From positions 1-64,000 of the forward strand of contig JANTHO010000005.1 in the NCBI GenBank assembly GCA_024762335.1: DNA of 64,000 nt, given 5' to 3'. A model generated the notes under the pieces. That model searched no databases. It was given only the letters and a program-made list of their open reading frames with translations, and had not been told where the DNA came from. The DNA comes from Acidimicrobiia bacterium. GTDB lineage: Bacteria > Actinomycetota > Acidimicrobiia > Spongiisociales > UBA5794. This document shows, piece after piece, positions 26,816 through 57,147 of the stretch (within the stretch, counting starts at the first letter, position 1; every line of letters starts with the position of its first letter). Position numbers and translations under genes: made by a program.

Positions 26816-27931
26816 TCAGAGTGGCAGCGTCGCACGCACGACCGTTCCGGATCCGGTCGTTGAATCGATCGAGATCTGGCCCCCTGCTCGTGTCGCTCGC
26901 TCGCGCAGATTCGTGAGCCCGAGCCCCCATGCCACGGCCGAGGGATCGAACCCGATCCCGTTGTCCGAGATGAGGAGGGCCAGGCGATCATCCCCGGCGT
27001 GGATCTCGATCGTGATCCGGTCGGCGTTCGAGTGACGGAGCGAGTTGCTCAGAGACTCGCGTACGAGCTGGGTCGCGTCGTCGACGACCTTCTGGGGGAG
27101 GGAGTCGAGCGATCCGGTGTACGCGACGTTGACTTCCGCATCGTGCGGTCCTGCAAGTCGGGTGACCAGCTCGCGAAGCTCCGAACGCAGGGTCCGGTGT
27201 TCGTCTGGAGGGGCTCCGAGGTTGAAGATGAAGCCACGCAAGGAAGTGATCGTTCGATCAAGGCTCTCGACATCCTGTTCGAGAGCCCGCCGGACGTCCG
27301 GGTCTGCGACCTTGAGCGCCTGGCCCTGAAGCGAGAGACCGACGGCAAACAGATCCTGGATGATGGCATCGTGCAAGTCCCGTGCGATTCGCTCGCGATC
27401 CTCCGCGACGGCGAGGCTCTGCAACCGTTGCTGGAGTCGCACCGTCCGGATGGCGGTTCCGGCGATCATGGCGAGCGCCTCAACGAGCGCCTCGTCCTCT
27501 TCGGTGAATCCACCTTCCTTGTCGGTGAGGTAGAGGTTGCCGAACAGGGTCGGGCCTGCGCGGACCGGCACACCGAGGAACGACTCCATGTGCGGGTGGT
27601 TCGGCGGCATGCCGCTCGAATCGGGGTGGTCGGAGATCCGATCCGTCCGGATCGTACGGCCTTCCTTCGAGATGAGGCCGAGCAGGCCGCGGCCGTGCGG
27701 AGGAGCCCCGATCGTTTCCGCTTCATCAGGATCGAGACCGGCATGGACGAAGTCGATCAGGCCGCCGTGGGCGCCGACCACGCCGAGGGCGCCGTGGGGG
27801 GCGCCGGTGAGGTCCCGTGCGATCTCGACGGTCGTGGCGAGGATCGCCTGAAGATCGGTCTGCCCGGCCACGGCTGCAGCGCCTTCGACGAGATCGCGCA
27901 ACCGCGCCGGCGTAAACTGGTTGAACACCAC
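26816..27931 (-). CDS. GAF-domain sensor histidine kinase, DevS/DosT-like (HisKA_3)
   Basis: GAF with NHPHMESFLGVPVRAGPTLFGNLYLTDK; DHp ERIARDLHDAIIQDLFAVGLSLQ. Confidence 0.88.
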   Translation of the reverse strand: MVFNQFTPARLRDLVEGAAAVAGQTDLQAILATTVEIARDLTGAPHGALGVVGAHGGLIDFVHAGLDPDEAETIGAPPHGRGLLGLISKEGRTIRTDRISDHPDSSGMPPNHPHMESFLGVPVRAGPTLFGNLYLTDKEGGFTEEDEALVEALAMIAGTAIRTVRLQQRLQSLAVAEDRERIARDLHDAIIQDLFAVGLSLQGQALKVADPDVRRALEQDVESLDRTITSLRGFIFNLGAPPDEHRTLRSELRELVTRLAGPHDAEVNVAYTGSLDSLPQKVVDDATQLVRESLSNSLRHSNADRITIEIHAGDDRLALLISDNGIGFDPSAVAWGLGLTNLRERATRAGGQISIDSTTGSGTVVRATLPL

Positions 27932-28004
27932 GGGTGAAGGCTACTCGGTTCTGAACGGGGCCATTCGGCCCTCCCCGTGACCCGAAATGAGGTAGGTTGC
28001 GGTC

Positions 28005-28700
28005 GTGCCACGAAAGAAGAAACCAGAAGGTCCCCTCCGCGTCGTACTCGTCGACGATCACGAAGTCGTGAGACGGGGCCTCCGTTCGCTCATCGACTCG
28101 TACGACGATCTCACCGTCGTCGGCGAAGCAGGCACTGCCAAAGAGGGGGTGCGGCGGGTCGGGTACGACGCTCCGGATGTGGTCGTCATGGACGTCCGGC
28201 TTCCCGACGGATCGGGCGTGGAGGCCTGCCGGGAGATCGTTGATCGGTGGCCGGACGTCGGCGTTCTGATCCTCACATCGTTCGCAGATGAGGAAGCGTT
28301 GATGTCGGCGATCATGGCCGGAGCGGCCGGCTACGTCTTGAAACGGATCGATGCGGAGGCCCTCGTCGACAGCATCCGGAGGGTCGGCGCGGGCGAGACC
28401 CTGCTCGATCCGGCGATGGCCGAGCCGCTGTTCGATCGGCTTCGTGGGCACACCGTCGACGATCCGTTGATCCGTCGTCTCTCCCCTCAGGAGCGACGCA
28501 TCCTCGATCTGATCGCAGACGGGAAGACGAACCGGCAGATCGCCGATGAGATGTTCCTCGCGGAGAAGACGGTGAAGAACTACGTGTCGAACCTTCTCGC
28601 GAAGATGGAGATGTCGAGGCGCAGCGAGGCTGCGGCGTACGCTGCCCGGGTTGCAACGCGACATGAGCATCAATATCCGCCGGAGGAATGGACCGAGTGA
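28005..28700 (+). CDS. NarL/FixJ response regulator, DevR/DosR-like
   Basis: VVLVDDHEVVRRGL receiver; HTH TNRQIADEMFLAEKTVKNYVSNLLAKM. Confidence 0.92.
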   Translation: MPRKKKPEGPLRVVLVDDHEVVRRGLRSLIDSYDDLTVVGEAGTAKEGVRRVGYDAPDVVVMDVRLPDGSGVEACREIVDRWPDVGVLILTSFADEEALMSAIMAGAAGYVLKRIDAEALVDSIRRVGAGETLLDPAMAEPLFDRLRGHTVDDPLIRRLSPQERRILDLIADGKTNRQIADEMFLAEKTVKNYVSNLLAKMEMSRRSEAAAYAARVATRHEHQYPPEEWTE

Positions 28701-49651: not shown

Positions 49652-50542
49652 CTAGAGGGCTGTCCGCGGAATCGAGTGATCCCAGTCCGCGAGGAGGGTT
49701 CTCAATGCCGCGACGAACGCCAGCGGCTGGTCGAGGATCAGATGGTGATGTGCTTCCGGGATGGAGACGACCGGTGCACTTCGTCCCATGAGTTCGTACA
49801 TGTAGGCGGCCGTGTTCTCCGGGACGACGGTGCTTGACTCGCCGCGGAACAGGGCGATCCGACAGCGGACCGAGGCAAGTTGGTCCCGCATCGAGACCAG
49901 CGTCTGGTCGAACAGATGGGGATCGAACTTCCACGTCCATCCCCCTTCGGTCTCATGGAGCGACAGCCGGGCGACGTGGTCCACGATGTAGTCGTTGTCG
50001 CATGGCTGCGGGGGGATGAGACGGAAGTGTTCGATGGCCGTTGCCTCGTCCGGGTACGTGCCGGGGGTGCGGAACGCCTGGCCTCGTGCCCCGGCGCGAG
50101 ACTCGGGGTCGGGTTCCCGAACCGGGGAGTCGACGATGACCGCTCCTGCGAGGTGGTCACAGTGAGTCGAAGCGAGCTGGATCGTGACCAGCCCTCCGAG
50201 GGAGTGACCGACCACGACCGGCGGTCCCGGAAAGCCGGCCGCGTCGGCTACGGCGACGACCTCTTCTGCCCAGAGCCGGTGGTCGTAGCGGTCGCGTCTG
50301 CCGCTGTCGCCGTGACCCGACAGATCGAGGGCCACGGCGTGCCACCGTTTGGCGAACATGGGAGCGAGGAACGACCACCAGTGTGCGTGAGCGGCTCCGC
50401 CGTGGACGAATACGAGCCCGGGAAGGCCCGGCTCACCCCATTCGAGATAGTGGATGTCTGTCCCTTCCACGGGGACCCACCCCTCTCGATACGGTGTGTC
50501 GACGGCGCGTGTGAACCAGTCCGGTGCAGGTACCTCAGCCAT
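49652..50542 (-). CDS. Alpha/beta hydrolase
   Basis: VFVHGGAAHAHWW, ALDLSGHGDSGRR, VVVGHSLGGLVTIQL. Confidence 0.93.
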   Translation of the reverse strand: MAEVPAPDWFTRAVDTPYREGWVPVEGTDIHYLEWGEPGLPGLVFVHGGAAHAHWWSFLAPMFAKRWHAVALDLSGHGDSGRRDRYDHRLWAEEVVAVADAAGFPGPPVVVGHSLGGLVTIQLASTHCDHLAGAVIVDSPVREPDPESRAGARGQAFRTPGTYPDEATAIEHFRLIPPQPCDNDYIVDHVARLSLHETEGGWTWKFDPHLFDQTLVSMRDQLASVRCRIALFRGESSTVVPENTAAYMYELMGRSAPVVSIPEAHHHLILDQPLAFVAALRTLLADWDHSIPRTAL

Positions 50543-52205
50543 CGGCCGCCTCGGAGGGGAGTGTGAACCAGCGCAACCGTTCGAAGTTCTCCGTGAATGA
50601 CTCCGGTTCGATCTCCCGGTCGGTCGGGAGCGCTCCCGCGAGGATCGCGCGCGCTTCATCGAGGTAGCGGGGGAGAACGGTGTCGGGGTCCCGTTGCGGC
50701 CGATGGTCGTAGCGCATCCAGCCGTCGGAGTAGTCGATCTCGGACAGGCTGAGTGGCGCTTCGCCACGCCCTCCGGTGTGCTCCCAGAGCCCGGTCGCTG
50801 CGTCGAACGTGTAGTGCGGGAGAAGCCGCCATCCTTCGTCCGCCACGAGGTGCACGGCCGCCACGATGAAGTCGAAGACTTCTTCCGTGACGAAGTAGTT
50901 GAAGTTGACGCGAACCCATCCGGGCTTGATGCCTTCGCATCCGCGCTCGATCTCCTTCTCGAATTCGAGCGAGGTATCGAGATCGATTCCGAGCAACTTG
51001 TGACCGTAGGGGCCGGCGCACGAACAGCCGCCTCTGGACTGGATCCCGAACAGGTCGTTGAGCAGCGCAACGACGAAATTGTGATGGAGATAGCGGTCGC
51101 CGTGGCGGATCACGAACGAGACGATCGACAGCCGATCGGCTTCCGGGTTCCCGAGGACCTTGATGTTCGGATTCTCGCTCCATGAAGCGATCGCCCGTTC
51201 GATGAAACTCTCTTCGAGACTCCGGATCCGTTCGCTCCCGACGGCCCGTTTCAACTGGAAGACGAGACCGGCGCGGATGGAATCGATGATCGCCGGGGTG
51301 CCGCCCTCCTCGCGATGCTCGATGTCGTCGAGATACCGATGTTCGTTCGCGTTGACGAACGCGACGGTGCCACCACCGGGGTTTGCCGGAACGCGGTTCT
51401 TGAAGAGTTCCTTGCGAGCAACGAGGACTCCCGGTGTTCCCGGCCCACCGATCATCTTGTGTGGCGAGATGAAGATCGCATCTTTGTACGCGAGCGGATC
51501 GTCGTCGGGGAGAACGTCGATCGCCACATAGGGAGCAGCCGCCGCGAAGTCCCAGAAGGACAGCGCCCCGTGATCGTGGAGGAGATGGGCGATCGCGCGA
51601 GTGTCGGAGATGATCCCGGTGACGTTCGAGGCTGCGGAGAAGCTGCCGATCTTCAGGGGACGATCCGCATGCGCTTCGAGTTGGCGTTCGAGATCTGCGA
51701 TGTCGACGTGGCCGTCGGCGTCCTCGGCGATCCTGATCACGTCCGCGATCGACTCCCGCCACGTCAACTCGTTGGAGTGGTGCTCGAACGGTCCGATGAA
51801 AACGACGGGTCGCTCCGATGCCGGGACGTGATCCGACAGGTGATAGCGATCGTCGAGCGTGCACGGAATACGAAGGCCGAGCACGTTGACGAGATGATTG
51901 ATTGCCCCCGTTGCCCCCGACCCGGCGAAGATCACCGCATAGGTGTCATCTGCGTTCACACAGGTGCGGATCATCTCGCGTGCTTCCTCGCGGAACCGGG
52001 TCGTTTGGAGGCCGGTGCCGGACGACTCTGTGTGCGTGTTGGCGTACAGGGGGAGGACGACATCGCGTATGTAGTCCTCGATGAACGACAGTGAACGGCC
52101 GGAGGCCGTGTAGTCGGCGTAGGTGACCCTGCGGTGTCCGAACGGCCCGGGAACGGCGTACTCGGATCCGATGACGGACGTGCGAATCGTCTCGATGAGG
52201 TCCAT
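50535..52205 (-). CDS. Class V aminotransferase-fold PLP enzyme (cysteine desulfurase-like)
   Basis: YADYTASGRSLSFIEDYI, WDFAAAAPYVAIDVLP, ISPHKMIGGPGTPGVLV. Confidence 0.85.
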   Translation of the reverse strand: MDLIETIRTSVIGSEYAVPGPFGHRRVTYADYTASGRSLSFIEDYIRDVVLPLYANTHTESSGTGLQTTRFREEAREMIRTCVNADDTYAVIFAGSGATGAINHLVNVLGLRIPCTLDDRYHLSDHVPASERPVVFIGPFEHHSNELTWRESIADVIRIAEDADGHVDIADLERQLEAHADRPLKIGSFSAASNVTGIISDTRAIAHLLHDHGALSFWDFAAAAPYVAIDVLPDDDPLAYKDAIFISPHKMIGGPGTPGVLVARKELFKNRVPANPGGGTVAFVNANEHRYLDDIEHREEGGTPAIIDSIRAGLVFQLKRAVGSERIRSLEESFIERAIASWSENPNIKVLGNPEADRLSIVSFVIRHGDRYLHHNFVVALLNDLFGIQSRGGCSCAGPYGHKLLGIDLDTSLEFEKEIERGCEGIKPGWVRVNFNYFVTEEVFDFIVAAVHLVADEGWRLLPHYTFDAATGLWEHTGGRGEAPLSLSEIDYSDGWMRYDHRPQRDPDTVLPRYLDEARAILAGALPTDREIEPESFTENFERLRWFTLPSEAADG

Positions 52206-52271
52206 GAGACGGAAGGGTAGAGCAGCACCGATCCAGATCCGAATGGTCCTCGGGGGGCATCCTCCTGCTTA

Positions 52272-52307
52272 GGGACTTTCGCCGCGGCGCGCGGGACTTC
52301 GGTCCCT
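52272..52307 (+). promoter_or_regulatory. DosR/DevR-type palindrome plus upstream half-site
   Basis: GGGACTTTCGCC (52272-52283) and GGGACTTCGGTCCC (52293-52306), register 21 bp apart; published DosR motif TTSGGGACTWWAGTCCCSAA. Confidence 0.55.
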
Positions 52308-52439
52308 AGAGAACGGGTCCGCTTCCGGCAAACAATGACGGCATAGCGATCCGCGGGTACGTGGACGTCTCTGGATCGGAGAAGGATCCAGGCGACGAAG
52401 TAGCCACGCAACGAGGATCTTCCAAAAGGGAGTTTCCGC

Positions 52440-54731
52440 GTGGCCAGAGTCGATCTCCAGATCACCAGACGACAGTTTCTTGCAACGGGTCTCGCCGGCA
52501 CGGCGCTTGCCGGGACCGGCATGGGACCCGGACGCTCCAACCTCTCGATGCGCTACCCCGACCCCCCGTGGTTCGCGACCGGCGAGGTCGTCACGACCTA
52601 CAACTACTGCGACATGTGTCCGTGGAAGTGTGGCATTGCGGTGCAGAGCGTCGACGGCAAGGTCATCAAGATCGACGGCAACGCTCCCGATCCGAAGAGC
52701 CGTGGAAGGCTCTGCGGGCGAGGACAGGCCGGTGTGTCGTTCATGAACGACCCGGACCGTCTCCAGTCGCCGATGATCCGCACCGGAGAGCGCGGCGAAG
52801 GGAAGTTCCGGGAGGTTACGTGGGAAGAGGCGCTCGACTACACCGCGGAGAAACTCCTCGCAATCAAGGACCAGTACGGTCCCGAGTCGCTGGCGATCTT
52901 CGGCCATACGTCGGGCGATTTCTGGTTCACCGATTACTTCGCGCAGGCATGGGGCACGCCGAACGCGGCGAAACCTTCATCAGCCCTGTGTCTCAGTCCG
53001 AGGGATGAAGCATCGACGCTCACATTCGGGCACGCGGTCGGCGGACACGAGCCGATGGACTGGGAGGAGATGCAGTGCATCACACTAATCGGGAGCCACA
53101 TCGGTGAGGATGCGCGCAACACCGTCATGCAGGACTTCGTCGAGGCCCGGGCGCGTGGCGCACAAGTGATCGTTGTCGATCCCCGGTTCTCCACCGCCGC
53201 GGCCAAGGCCGACTACTGGCTGCCGATCAAGCCGGGAACGGACACGGCGCTGCTGCTGGCATGGATCAACGTGCTCATCACCGAGGAGCGCTACGACCGG
53301 GCCTACATCGATCAGTGGGCGACAGGGTTCGATGAACTGGCATCCCACATTCAAGAGTTCACACCCGAGTGGGCGGCCGGTATCACGGACCTGAGTGCCG
53401 ACCAGATCCGAACGACCATTCGCGTCATGGCGGATCGCTCACCGCAGGCGGTCATCATGCCGGGCCGTCACGTCACGTGGTACGGGAACGACACCCAGCG
53501 GATGCGGGCTGAGTACCTCGTCAACTCGCTCCTCGGCGTCTACGGACGGCACGGGGGCATGTACTTCAACAAGTCTCCGTTCCTCGACTCGTATCCGCAT
53601 CCCCCGTTCGCCGTGCACGGAAGCTCGGGCGGATGCTCCGCGGAACCGGGAGAGGAGAGCGACGTCCTGCCGCTCGGTCCTTCCGGCAAGGCCCGTGCGG
53701 ACGGTGCCCGGGAGGCCTTCCTGCGTGGACCGACGGCGATGCAGGAATTGATCGATCCCATGATCACCGACGATCCGTACCGGATCGCGGGTCTGATCGT
53801 CTACGGAACGAACCTCCTCAACTCGGTCCCGATGCCGAACCGTACGATCGAGGCACTCAAGAAGCTCGACTTTGTGCTGGCCGTCGATGTCCTGCCACAG
53901 GAGCACGTCGCGTGGGCGGACGTGGTCTTCCCCGAAGCGACGTACCTCGAGCGGTACGACCAGCTCTCGACCGTTCCACACAAGACGCCGTTCATCCAAC
54001 TGCGAGAGCCGGCCGTTCCTCCCATGTACGACACGATGCCCGGATGGATGATGGCGAGGGAACTCGGCCTGCGGGTCGGGCTCGACGCCTTCTTCAAGTG
54101 GGAGACGATCGAGGAGTACCTGAACACGCGGCTGCGATCCGTCGGCTCCAACCTCGAGAAGATGCACGAGGCCGGCGGTGTGATCATCCAGGAAGGCAAG
54201 CCGTACCTCGAGGACTTCGAAGCCGACGGAGGCACGCCGTTCCACACGCCGTCCGGGAAGATCGAACTGTCGGTGGCAGAACTGGCAGAAGCCGGACTCG
54301 ATTCGATCCCCGTTTACGAGCCGACGGAGGAGCCGCCGGACGGGTACTACCGGTTGTTGTACGGCAGGGCGCCCGTCCACACGTTCGCCAAGACGCAGAA
54401 CACCCCGGACCTGAGCGCGGTCTACCCGGAGAATGAACTGTGGATCAACGAGGACGAAGCCGTCGCCCTCGGGTACGCCAACGGTGATCGTGTGTGGCTC
54501 GAGAATGAAGCGGGAGATCGAACCGGGCCGATCGCCGTCAAGGCAACGCAGCGGATCCGGAAGGATGCGGTCTTCATGGTGCACGGGTTCGGCCAGCAAT
54601 CCTCCGGGCTCACGAATGCGAACGGCAAGGGGGCGAGTGACACGAAACTCATGAGCCGCTACAAGCTCGATCCGATCAGCGGGGGAGCCGGTCTCCGTGT
54701 CAACTTCGTTCGATTGACGGAGGGAGGCTGA
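52440..54731 (+). CDS. TAT-exported molybdopterin oxidoreductase, polysulfide/thiosulfate reductase (PsrA/PhsA)-like catalytic subunit
   Basis: RRQFLATG twin-Arg; 4Fe-4S CDMCPWKCG...GRLCGRG; molybdopterin dinucleotide-binding C-term. Confidence 0.9.
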   Translation: MARVDLQITRRQFLATGLAGTALAGTGMGPGRSNLSMRYPDPPWFATGEVVTTYNYCDMCPWKCGIAVQSVDGKVIKIDGNAPDPKSRGRLCGRGQAGVSFMNDPDRLQSPMIRTGERGEGKFREVTWEEALDYTAEKLLAIKDQYGPESLAIFGHTSGDFWFTDYFAQAWGTPNAAKPSSALCLSPRDEASTLTFGHAVGGHEPMDWEEMQCITLIGSHIGEDARNTVMQDFVEARARGAQVIVVDPRFSTAAAKADYWLPIKPGTDTALLLAWINVLITEERYDRAYIDQWATGFDELASHIQEFTPEWAAGITDLSADQIRTTIRVMADRSPQAVIMPGRHVTWYGNDTQRMRAEYLVNSLLGVYGRHGGMYFNKSPFLDSYPHPPFAVHGSSGGCSAEPGEESDVLPLGPSGKARADGAREAFLRGPTAMQELIDPMITDDPYRIAGLIVYGTNLLNSVPMPNRTIEALKKLDFVLAVDVLPQEHVAWADVVFPEATYLERYDQLSTVPHKTPFIQLREPAVPPMYDTMPGWMMARELGLRVGLDAFFKWETIEEYLNTRLRSVGSNLEKMHEAGGVIIQEGKPYLEDFEADGGTPFHTPSGKIELSVAELAEAGLDSIPVYEPTEEPPDGYYRLLYGRAPVHTFAKTQNTPDLSAVYPENELWINEDEAVALGYANGDRVWLENEAGDRTGPIAVKATQRIRKDAVFMVHGFGQQSSGLTNANGKGASDTKLMSRYKLDPISGGAGLRVNFVRLTEGG

Positions 54732-54732
54732 C

Positions 54733-55515
54733 ATGGCATCTGCATTCCTGCTCGACATGACCCGCTGCATCGGCTGTGAAGCCTGCGTCCTGGCATGCAA
54801 GGCCGGGAATGAGCTTCCCGTCGAGATGCAGTACATCGAACTCATCGAACGCACTTCCGGCACGTTCCCGAACCTCGTGGGAGGCTTCGAGAACCACCGG
54901 TGCTACCACTGCACCGATGCCGCATGCGTGGCGGTCTGCCCGACCGGCGCCTTGTTCAAGGAAGACGGTCTTACCAGACTGGATCGGGATGCATGCAGCG
55001 GCTGCGGCTACTGCGTCCAGGCCTGTCCCTACGGGGTCCCGAAGATGGTGGGCGGCCGATCCAGCAAGTGCGATGCCTGTGCATCGAACGTCGGGGCGGG
55101 CGGGTCACCCTGGTGCGTGACCACCTGTCCGGCGCAGGCCCTCCAGTTCGGAGACCGCGAGAAGATCCTTGCTGAAGCCAAGTCGCGAGTGGCGGCGCTG
55201 AAGGACCGGTACCCGAAGGTGCAGGTATACGGAGAGACGCAGGCCGGTGGCTTGGGCCTCGTCCTGGTCCTCCCGGACGATCCGGAGACCCTCGATATCC
55301 CGGCAGATCCGCCGCTCGTTCCCGTCACCGTCGATGTGTGGAAGCACATCGTCCAGCCGGTTTCGATGGGGGCTACCGCTCTCGCCGCCGTCGGCGCCGG
55401 CGTTCTCGGTGTCATCGCCAGACGAAATCACCTTGCCGAACTCAAGGAGCTCGAGGAGCAGGAGAAGGCAGGCGTTGCCGCAGGTGGGTCTGAGAGCACG
55501 GAGGAAGAACGATGA
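54733..55515 (+). CDS. 4Fe-4S ferredoxin-type electron transfer subunit (PsrB-like) with C-terminal TM
   Basis: CIGCEACVLACK, CYHCTDAACVAVCPTGAL, CSGCGYCVQACPYGVP, CDACASN...CVTTCP. Confidence 0.93.
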   Translation: MASAFLLDMTRCIGCEACVLACKAGNELPVEMQYIELIERTSGTFPNLVGGFENHRCYHCTDAACVAVCPTGALFKEDGLTRLDRDACSGCGYCVQACPYGVPKMVGGRSSKCDACASNVGAGGSPWCVTTCPAQALQFGDREKILAEAKSRVAALKDRYPKVQVYGETQAGGLGLVLVLPDDPETLDIPADPPLVPVTVDVWKHIVQPVSMGATALAAVGAGVLGVIARRNHLAELKELEEQEKAGVAAGGSESTEEER

Positions 55516-56168
55516 GCGGCCATGACCACGAAGGGGAGATCCTTCGCTACCGGACCCGTCAACGGATCGTCCATGCGGTCATGGCGAGTTCGTTCCTGAT
55601 CCTGCTCATCACCGGGCTTGCCCTCGTCTGGGGTCCGCTGGCGTTCATCGCCGCAGGGGGATGGTCCCGGTATCTGCACCGGATCGCCGCCGTCGGGTTC
55701 ATCTCGGTGCCGTTCCTCTACATCCTGCTCGACCGTGCGGGTGCCAGGGAAGTGCTCGTGGAGTCCTTCCAGTACGACCACGACGACGTCGTGTGGTTCA
55801 AGAAGATGTACCGCTACGCGCTCGGACGTACGTCCGACATGCCGCCGCAGGGACGATTGAACGCCGGGCAGAAGCTGCACCACTCGGCAGTGATCATCTT
55901 CTCGGCCGTCATCGTGGCCACGGGGATCGTCCTGTGGGGATTCAAGTCGAGCCTGAGCCCGACGATGCTCGCATGGACCGCGATGATCCACGATCTTTCG
56001 ATGCTCGCGCTCACGCTGCTCCTCGTCGGACACGTCTTCTTCACATACGTCTACAAGGCCTGGTCCTCGATGGCCACCGGTTACGTCCCGGAGGACGAGA
56101 TGAAGCTCGAACACGGCAAGTGGGTCGAGGAGCTCGAGCACCAGGTTGCCACGGGTTCAGAGTCGTGA
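55512..56168 (+). CDS. Cytochrome b-type membrane subunit (FdnI/formate dehydrogenase gamma-like)
   Basis: Four TM helices with His residues (RIVHAVMASSFLILLITGLAL, LHHSAVIIFSAVIVATGIVLW, GHVFFTYVYKAW). Confidence 0.88.
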   Translation: MSGHDHEGEILRYRTRQRIVHAVMASSFLILLITGLALVWGPLAFIAAGGWSRYLHRIAAVGFISVPFLYILLDRAGAREVLVESFQYDHDDVVWFKKMYRYALGRTSDMPPQGRLNAGQKLHHSAVIIFSAVIVATGIVLWGFKSSLSPTMLAWTAMIHDLSMLALTLLLVGHVFFTYVYKAWSSMATGYVPEDEMKLEHGKWVEELEHQVATGSES

Positions 56169-56241: not shown

Positions 56242-57147
56242 ATGAGAAGGATGCATCGAGCATCACTCCTGATTGGGCTCATGCTCGTGCTGGCGATGAT
56301 TTCGGCGGCATGCAGTTCGAGCAGCGAAGAGACAACGACGACGGCGGCGCCGACAACGACGGTCGCCACAACGACGACGATGGCGTTCGATCTGACGGCG
56401 TCCGTCGACGAATACCTGAAGGCGCTGCCGGACGGCTACTACGCCATCGGTGATGTCCAGGTGTTCAAGGACGGCGTCGCTGCGAGCAGTGCTCTCGTGA
56501 TCGATGTTCGTGAAACGAGCGAGTACGAAGAGGGCCATATTCCGGGAGCGGTGAACATTCCGATTCGGACACTCGCACAGAATCTGGACAAGATCCCGAC
56601 CGACAGCCAGGTCTACGTCTATTGCGCCTCCGGGTTCAGGGCGGCACAGTCCCTGGCCTCGCTCGGCATGCTCGGCTACGACAACGTTCTGTCCTACAAG
56701 CCGGGTTGGGCCGGATGGACCGACGCTGGTGAAGAGGTCAGCACCGAGGCCGCAGAAGCACCGGTCGTCGGTGCGCCGGACATCGAGCCGGCGCTGCTTG
56801 CAGCGGTCGACGGCTATCTGTCGAGCATCCCCGACGGTTTCTACTCGGCGGGCAAGGCCGACGGCGTTCTCGAAGCCGCCGCGGCAGGGACGGCCCTGGT
56901 CGATGTGCGGACGGCCGGAGAGTACGAGAAGGGACACGTTGACGGCGCTCAGAACATCGACATCCACAATCTCGCGATGGACTTCGATGCGATTCCGACC
57001 GGTTCGAACGTGATCAACTACTGCGGATCCGGTCATCGAGCCGGCATGTCGGTTGCGGTGGTGCACGTGCTCGGCGCGGACAACGTCAAGGCCTACGGCG
57101 GGAGCTACCAGTCGCTGGTTGATGCCGGCGCACCGGTCGCACCGTAG
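56242..57147 (+). CDS. Tandem rhodanese-domain lipoprotein
   Basis: Lipobox ISAACSS; two rhodanese domains with active-site loops CASGFR and CGSGHR. Confidence 0.92.
   Translation: MRRMHRASLLIGLMLVLAMISAACSSSSEETTTTAAPTTTVATTTTMAFDLTASVDEYLKALPDGYYAIGDVQVFKDGVAASSALVIDVRETSEYEEGHIPGAVNIPIRTLAQNLDKIPTDSQVYVYCASGFRAAQSLASLGMLGYDNVLSYKPGWAGWTDAGEEVSTEAAEAPVVGAPDIEPALLAAVDGYLSSIPDGFYSAGKADGVLEAAAAGTALVDVRTAGEYEKGHVDGAQNIDIHNLAMDFDAIPTGSNVINYCGSGHRAGMSVAVVHVLGADNVKAYGGSYQSLVDAGAPVAP

Follow-up and report, generated by a model that had tools for sequence, protein, structure and literature searches.

The DosR/DevR hypoxia switch is known mainly from mycobacterial dormancy and from Streptomyces. Promoters of the DevR type are typified by close packing of their boxes and by overlap with the -35 region (PMC3029386). 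In the sensor kinase DevS, His149 is the proximal haem ligand and Tyr171 serves in gas discrimination (PMC4082495), and the dos regulon of M. smegmatis includes the hydrogenases Hhy and Hyh (PMC8125079). Streptomyces OsdR is a functional DevR orthologue and binds targets of M. tuberculosis DevR; in the available part of that report, its consensus is AGGGCCGATCGGCCCT and its targets are universal stress protein (USP), nitroreductase and developmental genes, with no polysulfide reductase described (PMC5069765). Further points of comparison for the locus reported here are PsrABC of Thermus thermophilus (PDB 2vpw-2vpz) and the Moco riboswitch candidate, a structured leader that precedes a molybdoenzyme gene (PMC2408646). 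Our literature search yielded no report of DosR from Acidimicrobiia, its matches being incidental. Here we analyze a 64-kb stretch of an Acidimicrobiia genome (the window, meaning the whole stretch of DNA analyzed), in which an initial annotation had interpreted sites upstream of a molybdenum oxidoreductase operon as DevR boxes. This interpretation is supported by comparative genomics.

A reductase operon preceded by paired DevR-type boxes

The operon, its divergent neighbor, and the elements between them are as follows.

50535 to 52205, minus strand: divergent class V aminotransferase or SufS-like protein (PF00266; SufS model below its cut-off)
52269 to 52288, plus strand: distal DevR-type box TTAGGGACTTTCGCCGCGGC, with a strong left half-site and a degenerate right half
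52290 to 52309, plus strand: proximal DevR-type box CGCGGGACTTCGGTCCCTAG, core at 52293-52306, with core and TAGA invariant in five genomes
52331 to 52336, plus strand: putative -10 element AACAAT, with NA(C/G)AAT kept in 5/5 genomes
52440 to 54731, plus strand: PsrA-type Mo-bisMGD catalytic subunit of a putative polysulfide/thiosulfate reductase, with a Tat signal (PDB 2vpw-2vpz)
54733 to 55515, plus strand: 4Fe-4S electron-transfer subunit (PF13247; DmsB/FDH-beta-like)
55512 to 56168, plus strand: cytochrome b561-type membrane subunit (PF01292)
56242 to 57147, plus strand: secreted tandem-rhodanese lipoprotein (PF00581 in two stretches; lipobox seen in the translation)

The sulfur-metabolism operon that had been predicted downstream of the boxes agrees with these assignments, the catalytic subunit being classed as PsrA-type by full-length homology. 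It matches Thermus PsrA at 928 bits over residues 9-760 and, as in Thermus PsrABC, is encoded with a 4Fe-4S subunit; unlike in PsrABC, the membrane subunit is of the cytochrome b561 type and a tandem-rhodanese lipoprotein is added. Because the PhsA equivalog cut-off is missed (NF012032, 484 bits against 694), we regard the substrate as putative. The closest loci to the reductase are found in Acidimicrobiia metagenome-assembled genomes and then in Chloroflexi, and the divergent SufS-like neighbor is kept in same-genus relatives.

The initial annotation described a perfect 5-4-5 palindrome, GGGAC-TTCG-GTCCC, unique in the window, with a partial site 21 bp upstream and a possible -10, and each of these elements is present. 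The core GGGACTTCGGTCCC at 52293-52306 has the palindromic GGGAC-type form of DosR/DevR promoters (TTSGGGACTWWAGTCCCSAA or AGGGCCGATCGGCCCT), and a motif scan finds it to be the sole perfect GGGAC-N4-GTCCC of the 64-kb window. Its 5-4-5 core is perfect and its outer flanks differ from the DosR consensus (CTAG here, not the mycobacterial SAA). The partner GGGACTTTCGCCGC lies at 52272-52285, in register with the proximal core and starting exactly 21 bp before it, and GGGACTTTCGCC is read from 52272. With a predicted +1 near 52343 for the -10 at 52331-52336, the proximal box would be centered near -43, as had been suggested. No sigma-70 consensus promoter was called at the reductase promoter, as would be expected if the promoter is activator-dependent. 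Among the own-genome regions scored for DevR-type boxes, which were chosen by motif matches, the proximal box has the top intergenic score. Taking these features together with their conservation, we consider it highly probable that the region 52269-52309 is a DevR/DosR-activated promoter of the reductase operon.

Conservation and genomic distribution of the motif

By its sequence alone the box would be weak evidence, and it rises above chance because of its conservation. Composition predicts about 0.23 perfect sites per 64 kb, and 4 are present in the whole genome, where a mirrored control gives 2; raw motif counts in the genome thus show no excess over the control, and a 20-bp home-made box score was uninformative at low threshold. 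The genome-wide motif scan that the initial annotation had proposed as a check therefore gave no raw enrichment, its signal being positional and phylogenetic instead. In seven same-genus genomes the exact TA-flanked GGGMCNNNNGKCCCTA is found at 21 places, every one of them intergenic, compared with 2/30 for the mirrored control pattern. Because TA is rare in coding DNA, a permuted palindrome retaining TA was run as a second control; it occurs at only 5 places, 3 of them intergenic. The Fisher p of 1e-12 for the intergenic bias used 22 places, one overlapping palindrome having been counted twice (the true number is 21), and it is to be read with the recurrence of orthologous promoters, which makes the places non-independent, and with intergenic status taken from the gene calls of our own codon-model finder.

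Five same-genus genomes carry the operon. In each of them the proximal core with its TAGA is unchanged, and a GGG[AC]C half-site precedes the proximal one by exactly 21 bp, while the spacer beside the invariant box is only 55-70% identical. Two closely packed boxes, as at DevR promoters, are found with this 21-bp spacing in 5/5 reductase promoters and in 3/3 promoters of a hydrogenase operon. Other Acidimicrobiia families have related GGGMC-N4-GKCCC sites before the operon, with GGGACGTCGGTCCC, GGGACCTCGGTCCC or TAGGG[AC]C-type sites before the reductase, and several DevR-like boxes lie upstream of the reductase in genus g8 (L011, L024, L068, L071, L072). The box score upstream of the reductase is above that of shuffles (p<=0.065) in most DevR-bearing Acidimicrobiia. 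No DevR-type box was found at the Chloroflexi reductase orthologues tested, and none upstream of the reductase in G098, a genome without a DevR match. Three reductase orthologues from DevR-bearing genomes (L074, L075, L076) have no significant box, so the coupling between box and DevR is imperfect.

The upstream regions of other genera contain additional palindromes. In the g8 reductase promoters, a CGCATATGCG-type palindrome is located further downstream of the DevR-like boxes. The regions upstream of the reductase at L021, L069, L071, L072 and L074 contain, besides DevR-like sites, CRP/FNR-type palindromes, TGTGA-N6-TCACA (for example, TTGTGAATTCCTTCACAAG), suggesting that in these genera the reductase may be under joint CRP/FNR and DevR control.

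A DevR and a DevS-like kinase in the window

A DevR with a matching recognition helix, also claimed in the initial annotation, is encoded in the window next to a sensor kinase.

26816 to 27931, minus strand: single-GAF sensor kinase of the DevS/DosT type (2vzw/2w3d GAF-A matches)
27958 to 27971, no strand assigned: putative DevR autoregulatory box GGGCCATTCGGCCC in the devS-devR gap
28005 to 28700, plus strand: DevR/DosR-type response regulator, the proposed activator (best match 3c3w)

The response regulator combines a receiver domain (PF00072) with a GerE domain (PF00196). Its best match is M. tuberculosis DevR (PDB 3c3w, 1.5e-62), with which it shares an identical recognition helix, EKTVKNYV(S). 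The kinase gene is divergent from devR, and the GAF residues aligned to DevS His149 and Tyr171 are conserved. Since a single GAF (24-161) precedes HisKA_3 in place of the tandem GAFs, we class the kinase as DevS-like rather than as a full DevS/DosT. The palindrome in the devS-devR gap (27955-27974) is of the OsdR type. In several other families a DevR-type box is found about 30-60 bp from devR, and in all of these the EKTVKNYV helix is present; two of the seven same-genus devR copies (L209, L212) have no good upstream box.

Other predicted targets of DevR

The motif also precedes genes that point to the content of the regulon. First, a group 3b [NiFe]-hydrogenase operon, which encodes a beta subunit, cNMP-binding and NAD-binding proteins, small and large subunits, and a protease, is preceded by the motif and has the 21-bp box pair in three genomes. 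Second, box GGGACTTTGGGCCCTAGAGA precedes an octaheme cytochrome of the tetrathionate reductase family (TIGR04315, 560 bits against a cut-off of 375) encoded with a cytochrome b561; the spacing of boxes in this promoter is 51 bp. Weaker boxes are associated with malic enzyme and with a YaaH acetate transporter, and four same-genus genomes carry HTH_17-PocR genes with upstream DevR-type boxes (L083:8506, L146, L153, L165). The expectation that the motif would be found upstream of stress genes was not borne out, as none of the five USP genes has a good box, and the predicted regulon is for this reason not the classic dormancy regulon.

Some individual sites are recorded here as well. Two closely spaced GGGCC-type sites lie before a YaaH acetate transporter gene at L137:7510-7558 (C18). 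At L141:2876-2957 (C33), box GGGACTTTGTTCCCTAG is 68 bp upstream of the gene for a 191-aa membrane protein without a Pfam match, which is divergent from a cyclopropane-synthase-like gene.

A structured leader in the reductase mRNA

Between the predicted start site and the reductase gene lies a conserved leader with two predicted folds, a feature that the initial annotation had overlooked.

52343 to 52439, plus strand: 97-nt 5' leader, conserved and structured, running from the predicted +1 up to the GTG
52348 to 52419, plus strand: fold A, GAUCC 52348-52352 with GGAUC 52415-52419 and CGUGG 52360-52364 with CCACG 52404-52408
52403 to 52444, plus strand: fold B, GCCACGC 52403-52409 with GCGUGGC 52438-52444 across the GTG start

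Compared with the closest relative (G083), the leader is 100% identical, the reductase coding sequence 85% and the spacer 70%; at its 3' end the constraint on the leader is partly coding. The leader extended through codon 2 (103 nt) has a predicted energy of -48.1 kcal/mol (MFE z -4.93), and none of 200 shuffles is as stable. Fold A encloses an apical stem (52366-52397) and is the MFE of transcripts of about 76-94 nt. In fold B, CUUCC 52419-52423 is also paired with the Shine-Dalgarno GGGAG 52428-52432, so that this fold, which is mutually exclusive with A, is predicted to bury both the ribosome site and the start codon. Fold B is the full-leader MFE in 5/5 genomes, with Shine-Dalgarno and start pairing above 0.95. 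When the Shine-Dalgarno and start were held fixed, 0/300 shuffles were as stable and 1/300 occluded both. Three pairs of the apical stem are changed on both sides among the 4 distinct sequences, and the other leader helices never vary, which leaves covariation thin. With few sequences and most pairs invariant, the case for a leader switch rests on energetics and conservation, and we would give about even chances that the leader RNA functions as one.

The leader appears to be confined to this genus. Its covariance model gives one match per genome and only in this genus; no convincing distant homologue was found in 138 genomes of the order (the best match outside the genus has E 0.011) or upstream of other reductase orthologues. 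No Rfam family matches at the leader (a lone P17 match, E 5.2, is meaningless), and the Moco riboswitch covariance model finds no match there even at E<=10. The leader is like the Moco riboswitch candidate (PMC2408646) in preceding a molybdoenzyme gene, and unlike it in being restricted to one genus and matching no Rfam family. Elsewhere, L078:1286-1329 matches the Rfam model of DUF2693-FD RNA at E 0.0015, with a score of 30.8 bits that is below the gathering threshold of 44.5.

Conservation of the leader could instead reflect a leader peptide, or overlapping DNA sites combined with coding constraint, and a GTG-initiated frame (52361) does run over part of it. However, a 1-nt deletion in G080 puts a stop into this frame, G082 and G084 have a 2-nt insertion, the variable columns fall in the apical stem and hairpin loop, where some changes are compensatory, and joint occlusion of Shine-Dalgarno and start is rare in shuffles (1/300). 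We find this explanation rather unlikely, though it deserves weight beside RNA switching.

Alternative readings of the boxes

Three other explanations bear on the promoter itself. In the first, the main target of the boxes is the divergent SufS-like gene and not the reductase operon. The boxes are 73-94 bp from the start of that gene and the divergent pair is conserved in same-genus relatives, but the conserved -10 is on the reductase side with DevR-like spacing, and in other families the boxes go with reductase orthologues, which makes this explanation improbable. The boxes could also serve both genes, as happens at divergent DevR promoters (PMC3029386). Taking the reductase operon as the target, it might still be asked whether the boxes are bound by another NarL-family response regulator, given that the genome encodes four other GerE proteins and that one of these (C30) has the partly similar helix SENTVKNHIR. 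Among the five strong GerE-domain proteins of the genome, however, this DevR alone has the full DosR helix, and the motif is directly upstream of devR in several families; a different regulator is accordingly quite improbable, and DevR is retained as the proposed activator. Finally, a role of the palindrome as an RNA hairpin, terminator or leader element is rejected as very unlikely on position and loop variation: although GGGAC-UUCG-GUCCC would form a perfect stem with a stable C(UUCG)G tetraloop, and some GGGCC..GGCCC sites elsewhere, such as those close to genes for alanine racemase, may be terminators, the palindrome sits between two divergent starts, upstream of a conserved -10 and without a T-tract, its loop is GTCG or CTCG in L013 and L024 with the GGGAC/GTCCC arms unchanged, the hairpin is absent from local MFE folds (which many shuffles equal), and the conserved partner half-site 21 bp away cannot form this hairpin.

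Proposed mechanism and relation to known systems

In the model we propose, low O2 (or NO) would lead the haem-GAF kinase (26816-27931) to phosphorylate DevR (28005-28700). DevR~P would then bind cooperatively to both boxes of the 21-bp pair, of which the proximal one would overlap the -35 region, and would recruit RNA polymerase to the -10 at 52331-52336. The PsrA-type reductase operon would thereby be switched on along with the group 3b hydrogenase, the octaheme tetrathionate reductase and devR. In the 97-nt leader, structure A would form first and then rearrange to B, burying the Shine-Dalgarno and the GTG; given this occlusion, translation of the reductase probably requires an additional signal that favors A, whether from a ligand, a protein, temperature or the timing of ribosomes. 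Drawing on sequence comparison and predicted folds, the model predicts binding by DevR, induction under hypoxia and switching of the RNA; anaerobic sulfur respiration would then be controlled at two levels. More tentatively, and as a possibility that we would not yet favor, the leader may be a new genus-restricted translational regulatory RNA, either a riboswitch or protein-controlled, that gates the reductase after its DevR-driven promoter and so makes the operon an AND-gate that combines low oxygen with another signal, which may be related to sulfur or Moco.

The system is like the DosR/DevR regulon of M. tuberculosis and M. smegmatis in its recognition helix, its GGGAC-type palindromes, its paired boxes near the predicted -35, the box at devR, the haem-GAF kinase and the group 3b (Hyh-type) hydrogenase target. 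It is unlike that regulon in that its targets center on sulfur-compound respiration, its USP genes lack good boxes, and its kinase has a single GAF and is divergent from devR. The devS-devR and hydrogenase boxes (GGGCC-N4-GGCCC) closely match the Streptomyces coelicolor OsdR consensus (PMC5069765). What the regulon contains, together with a leader that resembles a switch, makes the system a variant among DevR systems and not an ordinary example of them.

If these predictions are correct, the DosR/DevR hypoxia switch would extend to the deep-branching Acidimicrobiia, where DevR would govern polysulfide/thiosulfate and tetrathionate reduction and H2 cycling rather than a USP-dominated dormancy. 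The leader would add an unrecognized RNA layer on a sulfur-respiration gene, and the regulon as a whole would hint at an older respiratory role for DosR/DevR.
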